Shown here piece by piece: positions 32,378-36,662 of a stretch of DNA of 49,817 nt. Every line of letters starts with the position of its first letter. Position 1 is the first letter of the stretch. The notes under the pieces were generated by a model, which searched no databases, was not told the DNA's origin, and worked only from the letters and a program-made list of their open reading frames with translations. The DNA lies in the NCBI GenBank assembly GCA_020630065.1, contig JAHDCC010000024.1, positions 1-49,817 on the forward strand, given 5' to 3'. The stretch comes from Acidimicrobiales bacterium. GTDB taxonomy: Bacteria > Actinomycetota > Acidimicrobiia > Acidimicrobiales > SZUA-35. The translations under genes and the position numbers were made by a program.

Positions 32378-32465
32378 TGGCGGAGGAGGTGGGATTCGAA
32401 CCCACGGAAGGTTGCCCTTCACACGCTTTCCAAGCGTGCCGATTCGGCCGCTCTCGCACTCCTCC
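32378..32465 (-). tRNA. tRNA-Ser(GGA)
   Basis: Type II tRNA with a long variable arm. The 5' acceptor GGAGGAG (from 32465) pairs with CTCCTCC, discriminator G at 32381 and encoded CCA at 32378-32380. Anticodon stem CACGC/GCGTG closes the 7-nt loop TTGGAAA, anticodon GGA (Ser, UCC/UCU). The T loop TTCGAAT is intact. It lies 26 bp after the antitoxin stop and is the presumed integration target of the adjacent insert. Confidence 0.97.
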
Positions 32466-32576
32466 AGAACTAACAAATATGAAGTTCGGCTACGAACTCT
32501 ACCCCGAACGGCGTCAATCTCGTCTTCATTTGCTAGGATACGCCAAGTCGTAAAACTGTGTTGTCTGCTTTGGCAG

Positions 32577-32682
32577 GTGATGGTCGGGTCCTGTGCAACA
32601 TTGGCTCGTGAACCGAGTCAGGGCCGGAAGGCAGCAGCTCTCAGCGGAATCCTCTGTGTGCCGCAGGTCGCCTGGCCATCAC
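32577..32682 (+). ncRNA. ffs: Signal recognition particle RNA (small, 4.5S type)
   Basis: The conserved apical domain is present: GTCAGG...CCGGAAGGCAGCAGC with the GGAA tetraloop and the internal-loop bases that bind Ffh. The terminal stem pairs GTGATGG (32577-32583) with CCATCAC (32676-32682). The block GTGCAACATTGGCTCGTGAACC matches other actinobacterial small SRP RNAs. It sits 114 bp before dnaX, the usual place in this phylum. A T6 run at 32712-32717 may be part of its termination. The rest of 32683-32796 holds nothing else that I recognise. Confidence 0.95.
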
Positions 32683-32796
32683 TTGCGAGAGTAGGTGACA
32701 CAGTTTGCGGCTTTTTTAGACCCAGTCGACGGTCCTTCAATATTCGACCCCCATCCGAGAAGCCGCTGACCGTCATCTGCGGTAGGATCGAGGATC

Positions 32797-34896
32797 GTGG
32801 CTTATCAATCGCTTTACCGGCGCTATCGGTCTAAAAATTTCGCAGAAATCAAAGGGCAACCACACGTCACCTCGGCGTTGCGGACAGCGGTGGCTGAAGG
32901 CCGACACGGTCACGCCTACCTGTTCAGCGGCCCCCGAGGAACTGGCAAAACCTCGTCGGCTCGTGTTCTCGCCAAAGCCCTCAACTGTGAAAACACAGTC
33001 GACGGTGAACCGTGCACCACCTGCGATAGTTGCATTTCGATCGACCAAGGTAAATCGTTCGACCTTCACGAGTTAGACGCCGCCAGTAACAACAAAGTCG
33101 ACGACATTCGTGACCTGATCGCTAAAGTCCAGCTCGGCTCACCCGGCCGCACCAAAGTCTATATTTTGGATGAGGTGCACATGCTCAGCACGGGCGCCGA
33201 AAACGCGCTGCTGAAAACGTTGGAAGAACCACCCGACCACGTCGTGTTTGTGCTCGCCACCACCGAACCCCACAAAGTGGTTCCCACAATCCGCAGCCGG
33301 ACACAACACTTCGAATTCCATCTACTGCCCGCCGATGATCTGGCTGAACACGTCGCCTACGTCATCGACGACGCCGGGCTTGACGTTGACGCAGACGCCA
33401 TCGAATACGCGTTGGCTCAGGGTGGCGGGTCGGCACGCGACACCTTGTCGGCGCTCGATCTGGTCGCCGCAGCCGGTGGTGTGCCCACTGGTTCTAACGC
33501 CGGTATCGAACTGGTTCGTTCCATCGGGGCCGGTGACGCCGCCGCGTCGATCAGGCTAATCCAGGAAGCGTTAGTTAACGGCTTACAGCCCCGCCTTATC
33601 GGCGAACAAATGTTAGACGTTCTTCGCGACACGTTCCTCGCCGTTATGGGGGCAAGTCTCGACCATCTCAGCGACACGGCCCGAGCCGACATCGAAGGTT
33701 TAGCCGCCGATCTGAAACCGGCCACGTTAACCCGTTCGATGGAAATGGTCGGCCAAGCGTTGATCGAAATTCGTCAAGCCCCCGACCCTCGGGTCCCGCT
33801 CGAGGTAGCCGTGCTGCGACTCGCTAAACGAGATGGCACCGACCTTGCCGGTTTACTACAGCGCATCGAAGCGTTGGAGGCTCAAGTGTCGTCTGGTGTG
33901 GTCGCCCAAGCCCCCGCCGCTTCGGCCTCTGCATCGGCAGAACCGGCACCAACCCCAGCTTCGACGACTACGGCCGCCGCTCAGCCTGCGCCAGTAGCGA
34001 GCCCGGCAGTGTCGAGTGCGGCTGTGCCCACCGGTGCAGGTTCGGCTAGTGGCGAAGATACCCAACCGAGCCCGGCCGCCCAGCCAGCCCGCTCCGCTGC
34101 GCCTCCGGCTAGTCCTGCTGCCAACAAGCCTTCCGCTGATACCCCGGCACCCGCCCGCCGACCCCGATCACCTCGAGCCGCCCGCCCAGCCCCGACAGCT
34201 CAAACACCGTCTGCCCAAACACCGTCTGCCCAAACACCGTCTGCTCAAGCAGCAAGCTCCGAACCGGCCTCGCAGCCCACTGAACAAACCGCCCAACCCG
34301 CAGCTCCTCAAACAAACGAACCAGCCCCGCAGTCTCAACCCGAGCCTGCACCGGCAACGTCTCAACCCGCACAGCCAGCTGCTGCACCGAATCCGGCACC
34401 GGCAACGTCTCAACCCGAGCCTGCGGCCCCTCAACCAGCCCCAGCTGCTGGTGCCGCCCCAACACAAAAACTCACTGTTGCCTCAGCTCAAGATGCGTTA
34501 GCAAAAAGCCTCGAACGTGTCAGCCAAAAAGCGAGAGTCCGTTTTAAAGGCGGGACCGTAAGCGCAGCTGAAGACACAACCGTCATCTTCGCCGCACCCA
34601 ACCAAATTCACCGCGACCGATGCGCCGAAGTTAAACACGACGTCGAAGCAGCCCTATCAGAACATTTCGGCGCATCCATCACCGTCGAAGTGGTAGTCGA
34701 CGGTGACGCCCTGGGGTCCACCATCATGGACCCCACAAAGATTGACCGCAGCGCCCGCAAAGAACCCGAAGCCGCCGAAGATATCGGCCCAGTGTCCGAA
34801 TTGGCGGACGCCGACGACACCGCCTCAACTGGCGTCGATCGACTCACCAAAGCTTTCCCCGGGTCAAAAGTTATCGAACACAACTCATCGGACTAG
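32797..34896 (+). CDS. dnaX: DNA polymerase III gamma/tau subunit
   Basis: A 699-residue clamp-loader ATPase. Walker A GPRGTGKT (45-52), zinc-binding cysteines C64, C73, C76, C79, Walker B LDEVH (124-128) and the arginine-containing TIRSRTQHFEF sensor segment are all present in the first 230 residues. Domains II-III follow to about 370. A 190-residue Ala/Pro/Gln/Ser linker (about 372-560) contains repeats, then a small C-terminal domain (about 565-640) probably contacts the polymerase. GTG start at 32797 with GAGG just upstream. First gene of a dnaX-ybaB-recR operon. No slippery A/T run for gamma production is evident. Confidence 0.96.
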   Translation: MAYQSLYRRYRSKNFAEIKGQPHVTSALRTAVAEGRHGHAYLFSGPRGTGKTSSARVLAKALNCENTVDGEPCTTCDSCISIDQGKSFDLHELDAASNNKVDDIRDLIAKVQLGSPGRTKVYILDEVHMLSTGAENALLKTLEEPPDHVVFVLATTEPHKVVPTIRSRTQHFEFHLLPADDLAEHVAYVIDDAGLDVDADAIEYALAQGGGSARDTLSALDLVAAAGGVPTGSNAGIELVRSIGAGDAAASIRLIQEALVNGLQPRLIGEQMLDVLRDTFLAVMGASLDHLSDTARADIEGLAADLKPATLTRSMEMVGQALIEIRQAPDPRVPLEVAVLRLAKRDGTDLAGLLQRIEALEAQVSSGVVAQAPAASASASAEPAPTPASTTTAAAQPAPVASPAVSSAAVPTGAGSASGEDTQPSPAAQPARSAAPPASPAANKPSADTPAPARRPRSPRAARPAPTAQTPSAQTPSAQTPSAQAASSEPASQPTEQTAQPAAPQTNEPAPQSQPEPAPATSQPAQPAAAPNPAPATSQPEPAAPQPAPAAGAAPTQKLTVASAQDALAKSLERVSQKARVRFKGGTVSAAEDTTVIFAAPNQIHRDRCAEVKHDVEAALSEHFGASITVEVVVDGDALGSTIMDPTKIDRSARKEPEAAEDIGPVSELADADDTASTGVDRLTKAFPGSKVIEHNSSD
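34201..34245 (+). repeat. 15-bp tandem repeat in dnaX linker
   Basis: Three copies of CAAACACCGTCTGCC encode QTPSA x3. A further 22-bp direct repeat occurs at 34348-34369 and 34396-34417. Both lie in the disordered linker and keep frame. Copy number is likely to vary between strains. Confidence 0.9.
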
Positions 34897-34905
34897 GAGA
34901 AAACA

Positions 34906-35253
34906 ATGAGCGACACCCCTAACCAAGCCGGTCTCGGCGGCGTAGATTTCGGCGCTTTGATCGAACAAGCACAAGCCATGAAATCACAGGTCGACGACGC
35001 CCAACAGCAGATCGCCGACGAAACGTTCATCGGTTCAGCCGCAGGCGACAAAGTCACTGTCGAAGTGACCGGAGCCCACGAATACACCAGCATTAAAATA
35101 AGCCCCGAGGTTGTCGACGCCGACGACGTCGAAATGTTAGAAGATCTGATCCTCGCAGCCCTGCGTGACGCCAACACCAAAATGGGTGAATACCAAGAAG
35201 AGACGATGGGTAGTCTCGACATGCCTGACTTGGGTGGAATGCTAGGTGGATAG
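34906..35253 (+). CDS. YbaB/EbfC nucleoid-associated protein
   Basis: A 115-residue DNA-binding protein that forms a tweezer-like dimer. Residues 15-40 form the first helix (LIEQAQAMKSQVDDAQQQIAD), then the strand TFIGSAAGDKVTVEVTGAHEYTSIKISPEVVD, and the second helix EDLILAALRDANTKMGE with a Gly-rich end (LGGMLGG). This matches YbaB closely and in length. Lies 9 bp after dnaX and 21 bp before recR, as in most bacteria. ATG preceded by GGAGAAAA. Confidence 0.95.
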   Translation: MSDTPNQAGLGGVDFGALIEQAQAMKSQVDDAQQQIADETFIGSAAGDKVTVEVTGAHEYTSIKISPEVVDADDVEMLEDLILAALRDANTKMGEYQEETMGSLDMPDLGGMLGG

Positions 35254-35274
35254 CGGGAAAAGGTCGGAGGCGTC

Positions 35275-35877
35275 GTGAGCGTTTACGCAAAACCGGTCGA
35301 AGTCCTTATCGACGAGCTGGGTCGCCTTCCCGGCGTCGGACCGAAATCAGCTCAGCGAATAGCCTTTCACCTTCTCAAAGCCGAAACCGTCGACGTTAAA
35401 CGCCTCACCGACGCGCTCACCGACCTGAAAGAATCGGTCTCGTTCTGTTCCCGCTGTTTTAACGTCGCAACCCAAACCGAGTGCCGCATATGCACTAACC
35501 CGCAACGAGACGACACGATTCTTTGTGTTGTTGAAGAACCTAAAGACATTTCAGCGATTGAGCGAACCGGCTCGTTCAAGGGCCGGTACCACGTGCTGTT
35601 GGGGAGCATCAACCCGCTTGAAGGCATCGGCCCTGACAAACTGAAGATCCGGGAGTTGGCTCACCGGGTAGCAGCCGAAAACATTACCGAAGTTATTCTC
35701 TGCACAAACCCGAACCTCGAAGGTGAAACAACGGCGGCGTTTATCGCTCAGAAAGTTCTTCAACCGTTTGAGATCAAGGTGACCCGGTTAGCGTCGGGGC
35801 TCCCGGTTGGTGGCGACCTCGAATACGCCGACGAACTGACATTGGGCCGAGCGTTACAAGGCCGTCAGAGCCTGTAG
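35275..35877 (+). CDS. recR: Recombination mediator RecR
   Basis: A 200-residue protein that loads RecA at gaps together with RecO/RecF. Helix-hairpin-helix [14 protein letters not shown] (about 18-31), zinc finger C58-C61-C70-C73, Toprim domain starting at [15 protein letters not shown] and containing [13 protein letters not shown], and the C-terminal Walker-like region [26 protein letters not shown]. Length matches. GTG start with GGAGG upstream. The stop abuts the stop of the convergent ferredoxin gene with no gap. Confidence 0.97.
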
Positions 35878-36222
35878 TTAGCCGGTCTGTTCCACCGGTT
35901 GGGTTCGGTCGATGCGATGAGGCGCTATTTGTTCAGGTAACGTTGGCGCCCCGTCGCGAAGCCAGTCGCAAACATCACTCAAGATTGTGTCGTCAACGAT
36001 CCAACCCAGCCATTCAGCCTCCCGTTCGGGTTGAAGAACTACGACGACGTTTGAAGCATGGCATTCACCCAAACAATCCACGACCCGTGAAGTTCCGCCA
36101 CCGGCTGTAGCGGCTGCGGCGATTTCGTCACGCTGACGTTGGTGGTCGATGTTTGGATGTTTCTCGGTTGTGCCACAGCAACAGGCGTCGCACATTTGAA
36201 CACGAAAGGCTGGAGAGGTCAT
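35878..36222 (-). CDS. Thioredoxin-like [2Fe-2S] ferredoxin
   Basis: A 114-residue protein. Cysteines in CDACCCGT (residues 11-17) and DCLGEC (about 49-54) give the C-x(n)-C-x3-C spacing of thioredoxin-fold [2Fe-2S] ferredoxins. The strand SNVVVVLQP and a C-terminal region with a Trp-Leu-Gly turn follow. Electron-transfer partner unknown. GGGAG lies 3 nt before the ATG. It converges with recR. The non-coding stretch upstream holds a chain of strong hairpins that may be its leader or a separate RNA. Confidence 0.8.
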   Translation of the reverse strand: MTSPAFRVQMCDACCCGTTEKHPNIDHQRQRDEIAAAATAGGGTSRVVDCLGECHASNVVVVLQPEREAEWLGWIVDDTILSDVCDWLRDGAPTLPEQIAPHRIDRTQPVEQTG

Positions 36223-36330
36223 TGCTCCCAGTCTGTCAACGTTTAGTGGATGAGCGTCGGTTGAGTGTCCAATATCCTTTGCCGCTATTGGTCGACGGCG
36301 GCAGGTGCCTCAGAACTGATGAAGCCGGTA

Positions 36331-36542
36331 AAAACCCTAAAGACCAAGAGTGTGCTTGCGGCAGCTCTTGGTCTTCAGGAAACTACAAGGCGTATGTTCG
36401 GAGAGATTCAAATACCTTGCTGCTATTGCGATCCGGGTCGGCGGGGAGAGGGTACACCGACCCGGTTCGTTCACTACGACACCCCAGTGACTGTGGCGCG
36501 GGCGGTATGGGTAAACCAGTCACTGGAGCGTCGTAGTGTGTT
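36331..36542 (-). ncRNA. Candidate structured RNA with three hairpins
   Basis: Read on the minus strand from about 36542 there are three perfect-stemmed hairpins. Hairpin C: 9 bp (36530-36538 with 36472-36480), a 3x3 internal loop, 10 bp (36517-36526 with 36484-36493), 23-nt loop. Hairpin B: 9 bp (36457-36465 with 36433-36441), 15-nt C-rich loop. Hairpin A: 11 bp (36365-36375 with 36340-36350), followed by TAGGG then TTTTT, a weak terminator. A promoter precedes hairpin C. Strand is inferred from promoter and U-run, since hairpins are symmetric. It matches no RNA family that I can name. It could be an sRNA or the leader of the ferredoxin gene. Confidence 0.55.
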
Positions 36543-36548
36543 GCCTTT

Positions 36549-36577
36549 ATGTTACAACAATAACGATCCAATGACAA
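36549..36577 (-). promoter_or_regulatory. Minus-strand promoter before hairpin array
   Basis: TTGTCA (36572-36577), 17 nt, TAACAT (36549-36554) on the minus strand. The expected start, near 36542, falls 4 nt before the first hairpin, which supports transcription of the hairpins as an RNA. Confidence 0.55.
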
Positions 36578-36662
36578 GTAAGTCGGCGCTTCTAGTCAAA
36601 AAATGTCGCTGAACAGCGAAAATAGCACAAAAAATATTCGATGTCGTGACACTAAATAATAA

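Follow-up and report, generated by a model that had tools for sequence, protein, structure and literature searches.

In the window, the 49,817-nucleotide stretch of Acidimicrobiales DNA analysed here, the minus strand between about 36542 and 36330 almost certainly carries a conserved RNA gene that is under selection. The RNA is a new family of a known general kind, which our sequence comparisons have placed so far only in Acidimicrobiales, a widespread and hardly studied order. The open literature that we searched contained nothing about this RNA and no publication on small RNAs of the order. Comparison with relatives shows a minus-strand RNA structure maintained by selection, with two strongly constrained loops, a conserved promoter of its own, independence of its neighbours and no consistent reading frame. 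The RNA very probably acts in trans, and there is about an even chance that it is an autonomous small RNA whose C-rich loops pair with mRNAs in the manner of 6C RNA. The features discussed below are as follows.

About 36542-36330, minus strand: small-RNA gene, about 213 nt, of which the conserved core (hairpins A and B) makes up about 120 nt
36549-36577, minus strand: promoter TTGTCA-17-TAACAT (pattern scan; genome-wide uniqueness; same in relatives)
36472-36538, minus strand: hairpin A, 22-bp stem and 23-nt loop (inverted repeat, fold, covariation)
36494-36512, minus strand: invariant core of loop A, ACCCAUACCGCCCGCGCCA (column identity, cross-family invariance)
36429-36469, minus strand: hairpin B, GC-rich stem and C/U-rich loop (inverted repeat, fold, compensatory changes)
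36443-36451, minus strand: CCUCUCCCC in loop B, a possible pairing sequence (conserved with hairpin B)
36330-36379, minus strand: terminator-type hairpin, 15 bp, 14-nt loop, T-run at 36334-36330 (inverted repeat, fold, sequence)
35275-35877, plus strand: recR, convergent to the RNA and its usual neighbour in relatives (Pfam RecR domains, synteny)
35878-36222, minus strand: thioredoxin-like [2Fe-2S] ferredoxin-type gene (sub-threshold Pfam match, E 0.17)

An earlier note on this DNA had proposed an undescribed structured RNA with three long stems, a minus-strand promoter and a T-rich stretch after the last stem, and these elements lie where it put them; if G-U pairs on the minus strand are counted, the stems are longer than claimed. 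With such pairs, the arms of hairpin A (36538-36517 and 36493-36472) form 22 bp. Hairpin B has 13-nt arms (36469-36457 and 36441-36429) with one mismatch, a consensus core stem of 11 bp and a loop that reads ..ACCCUCUCCCC.. on the minus strand. After a weak intervening hairpin comes the terminator-type hairpin (arms 36379-36365 and 36350-36336), followed by GTTTTT at 36335-36330 and probably forming the 3′ end of the RNA in the source genome; several relatives have other terminator-like hairpins in its place. The longest run of C in the loops of the source genome is CCCC. A genome-wide search found the element once in the 3.7-Mb genome, ruling out a scattered repeat, and stop codons in every frame, together with length changes among relatives that are not multiples of three, ruled out a protein-coding sequence. 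No Rfam family matched the source element at E 10, and none matched above its cut-off in 12 diverged relatives.

The promoter is of the sigma-70 type, with the −35 sequence TTGTCA at 36577-36572, a 17-nt spacer and the −10 sequence TAACAT at 36554-36549, from which the RNA would be expected to start near 36542. The pattern TTGTCA-N12..14-GTTGTAAC has its sole match in the genome at this promoter, and TTGTCA-17-TGTAACnT is found upstream of the RNA in relatives too.

Folding of 36300-36600 favoured the minus strand. The minus-strand fold reached −123.4 kcal/mol, with a z-score against dinucleotide shuffles of −7.3 (0 of 100 shuffles as good), whereas the plus strand gave −3.7 on the same measure because the stems of hairpin A and the terminator carry A-C mismatches there; the difference is due largely to G-U pairs that are present on the minus strand only. 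In the alignment of 17 sequences described below, about 77 cells in sum are G-U, equivalent to A-C mismatches on the opposite strand, compared with 4 that are unpaired.

Conservation and covariation in relatives, the main test that the earlier note had named for its candidate, bore the structure out. By DNA search, most of 39 genomes from this family carry the element, and the named carrier records are uncultured Acidimicrobiales, the SZUA-35 genome included. Over the 33 pairs of a 17-sequence same-family alignment, 99.3% of the 561 cells were paired and 14 pairs showed compensatory double changes, a result that none of 500 shuffles equalled; when the partners were slid by 1-3 columns, only 28-51% were paired. 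Hairpin A accounted for double changes at 12 of its 22 pairs, and the compensatory changes in hairpin B include G-C to A-U and U-A to C-G. Mean column identity was 0.99 in the core of loop A, 0.86 in the A stem and 0.55 in the linker, and almost every family member with a hairpin B keeps CCUCUCCCC, even where hairpin A is missing. The covariation support for this single-copy RNA is unusually strong.

Because model R1 picked up weaker members linked to recR in two further families (L041/L046 and L048), we examined the sequence 3′ of recR in 40 genomes sampled across the order. Thirteen of them hold CCGCCCGC in a stem-loop with at least seven of eight inner pairs, 11 at the end of recR; shuffled sequences gave a mean of 1.95 (maximum 5 in 100) and the opposite strand gave 0. 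Since plain MAFFT misaligned the stems of the diverged hairpins, we aligned 20 sequences from ten families manually, with the loop as the anchor. The inner A stem was 98.1% paired in this set, a value biased upward because the stem limits were chosen for pairing, and all 8 inner pairs were double-changed; slid-partner controls gave 22-47%, and these together with the shuffles indicate how large the effect is. The eight columns of CCGCCCGC are invariant throughout, and the deeper core of loop A across families can be written (A/U)CCGCCCGC(G/A)C. C-rich stretches occur in or next to a second hairpin in six diverged members (L095, L103, L107, L114, L122 and L124). Some members of the order have no RNA at recR, the thiolase gene abutting recR directly in L087, L090-L092 and L106.

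Beyond the order, a loop-core model searched against 396 genomes across the phylum yielded no credible member outside Acidimicrobiales; this search is insensitive, since it missed the known diverged member G138, and 8 weak model matches were rejected as sequence without recR, most of it evidently coding. The exact 19-mer loop occurs in 60 stretches among about 85,000 species genomes. Twenty of these match the structure strongly, all in Acidimicrobiales-type records, and the remainder do not match it strongly. The hairpin B pattern was absent from the viral contigs searched.

Within the family the RNA takes three forms. Hairpins A and B occur together in the source genome and in genera g2, g4 and g9; an ordinary terminator or some other sequence comes after hairpin A in g7 and g11 (L013, L015, L016, L021 and L022, which have no B); and hairpin B stands behind a different 5′ hairpin in g3, g8 and g10 (L023-L026 and L028, which have no A) and also in L053. 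In L023-L026 and L028, the 5′ part in place of hairpin A is unrelated. As some relatives have no A and others no B, neither loop is indispensable everywhere.

The gene neighbourhood also varies. The usual site is past the 3′ end of recR, convergent with it, after dnaX-ybaB-recR. In the source genome, a tRNA-Ser(GGA), the SRP RNA and the dnaX-ybaB-recR cluster occupy 32378-35877, just beside the RNA gene, and the ferredoxin-type gene, whose product is small and cysteine-rich, abuts recR. The RNA lies away from recR in L010, L011, L013, L015 and L053; the stretches read for the first four hold no recR, and in L053 the B form (1440-1640) lies between a thiolase gene and dnaX, indicating a rearrangement of either the operon or the RNA. 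DivIVA- or tadA-type genes flank the RNA in some relatives. The promoter and the structure are kept while the neighbours change, which identifies the RNA gene as an autonomous unit.

This mobility bears on the proposal of the earlier note that the RNA could be a leader of the ferredoxin gene, and on cis action in general. The RNA lies upstream of the ferredoxin-type gene on the same strand in the source genome and converges on recR in most relatives, as would be expected of a ferredoxin leader or of a convergent antisense RNA or double terminator serving recR and its neighbour. However, the ferredoxin and metY genes adjoin the RNA in the source genome only; in relatives the ferredoxin gene is not beside the RNA, which faces recR or other genes, so that a position upstream of the same gene is not conserved. 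Even in the source genome, a strong terminator-type hairpin separates the RNA from the ferredoxin gene. Because these neighbours are peculiar to one genome and the RNA has moved in some relatives, as to the site before dnaX in L053 or to those beside DivIVA- or tadA-type genes, we do not regard it as a leader of the ferredoxin gene or of metY. A terminator, for its part, needs neither invariant loops nor a conserved promoter. We consider a cis-acting element improbable.

Among known RNAs, the closest in design is 6C RNA (RF01066; B11 in mycobacteria, scr3558 in Streptomyces), likewise a small actinobacterial RNA with its own gene, in which two hairpins present C-rich loops (hairpins A and B here) and no adjacent regulated gene is implied. 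By its anatomy, the Acidimicrobiales RNA would work like 6C RNA, the C-rich loops of its two hairpins pairing with G-rich sites in mRNAs. The resemblance to 6C remarked on in the earlier note holds as an analogy of C-rich loops and does not extend to membership. The 6C model matched nothing in the window at E ≤ 10, nothing in the 12 diverged relatives and none of 41 related genomes, the last against a weak control in which 1 of 14 genomes matched, below the cut-off, such that the absence of 6C from the order is not proven. By definition, the loops of 6C RNA contain uninterrupted runs of six C or more; the source loops have no such run, which appears only in some relatives (L107, L114, L124 and L095). 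Loop A has instead the fixed mixed sequence given above and loop B has CCUCUCCCC, and stem A is 22 bp in the family of the source genome. The 6C locus lies beside Ms1 in mycobacteria or scr3559 in Streptomyces (PMC9569102, PMC8539372), whereas the Acidimicrobiales RNA is linked to recR or the thiolase-dnaX-recR neighbourhood. As the model is unmatched, the locus differs and the C6 run is missing here, we do not file the RNA as 6C. A very diverged descendant or member of 6C that moved to the recR locus would account for the two hairpins with C-rich loops and for the runs of six or more C in those four relatives; given the unmatched model, the different locus and a loop A that is CCGCCCGC rather than a run of C, such an origin seems to us a long shot.

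The loops are frozen on stems that drift freely, which indicates that something reads them. In the pairing mechanism that we favour, the RNA would be transcribed from the TTGTCA-17-TAACAT promoter, terminate either at hairpin B or at the hairpin further downstream, and act in trans. Its rigid stems would display two single-stranded C-rich loops for pairing with G-rich stretches of several mRNAs, in 5′ regions or coding sequence, and pairing would alter the translation or stability of these mRNAs, as with 6C/B11 in other Actinobacteria. B11, the 6C homologue, represses eccB4, whose 5′ UTR contains six consecutive G, and either C-rich loop suffices (PMC10470900). If the RNA had several targets, this would account for loops that stay frozen on varying stems. 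The RNA also offers what looks like an independent instance of the C-rich-loop design of 6C RNA, and comparison with 6C could show whether Actinobacteria repeatedly rely on small-RNA pairing with G-rich sites; the frozen loops also point to the features to be sought in partners.

The earlier note had suggested that loop B could pair with ribosome-binding sites, and the exact complements in the source genome are not placed as such sites. The complement of loop B, GGGGAGAGG, occurs 26 times genome-wide and the reversed pattern 9 times, an excess that codon usage can explain. The 25 other GGGGAGAGG sites are mostly inside coding frames, with no convincing ribosome-binding site among those of the source genome and no preference of the exact 9-mer complements for start sites. 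We accordingly rejected ribosome-binding-site targets reached through GGGGAGAGG or through GGGCGGTATG, the exact complement of part of loop A, the sites being mostly within coding frames. A C/U-rich loop that could in principle pair with G-rich ribosome-binding sites is also a feature of CcsR1 (RF02791), an RNA with a conserved CCUCCUCCC motif. CcsR1 differs in architecture and comes from a different phylum; its model matched a single relative, and that below the threshold (20.1 bits, where the cut-off is 65.3; E 0.27).

The frozen loops would fit a protein partner just as well. It is possible, if doubtful, that the RNA is of a housekeeping type, its two loops being recognised by a conserved protein that the RNA titrates or regulates. 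This protein might be RNA polymerase, the partner of 6S and Ms1, or one that binds RNA or associates with the ribosome. The single-copy gene with its conserved promoter, the loop letters fixed across families while the stems drift, and the lack of exact target sites in start regions are all consistent with this. Ms1 and the 6S-like scr3559 are structured, stable RNAs of Actinobacteria, about 200-300 nt long and with promoters of their own; they have 6S-like folds and bind RNA polymerase (PMC8539372). The present RNA, in contrast, has two or three separate hairpins, not the one long hairpin with a bubble at its centre that marks a 6S-type fold, and matches no 6S family in Rfam. Unstructured C-rich loops are a more typical feature of RNAs that act by base pairing, and many genomes of the order have no RNA at the recR site, which likewise speak against a housekeeping role. 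Also doubtful is a new order-specific class of global regulator RNA, in which two modular hairpins are gained and lost separately, the fixed loops are read by a partner that is itself conserved, either a protein or a single core transcript and not assorted mRNAs, and a dedicated promoter carries repeated TGTCA boxes.

Loop A and the 1400 region of 16S rRNA share ACCGCCCG, an eight-letter sense match to the source genome's 16S, which would fit an RNA that is antisense to, or a mimic of, ribosomal or SRP RNA. Shuffled loops match 16S equally well in 121 of 500 cases, however, and neither 16S nor the window's SRP RNA gives duplex energies better than those of shuffles, making such a role highly improbable. 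Pairing with mRNAs through the C-rich loops remains the reading that we prefer.

The promoter region has features of its own. In many relatives, a TGTCA box is repeated about 11-12 bp apart (TTGTCA-N5/6-(C/T)GTCA) before TGTAAC; this observation covers the source promoter (36577-36549) and L002-L022, L104, L122 and L124. In some relatives, a TGTTG...CAACA inverted repeat spans the −10 sequence. The repeated box or the inverted repeat might serve as the target of a regulator. On the minus strand of the source genome, the RNA promoter is closely preceded by a terminator-like hairpin, TCGCTGTTCAGCGA (36619-36606), with a T-run after it; no minus-strand gene is evident ahead of this hairpin.
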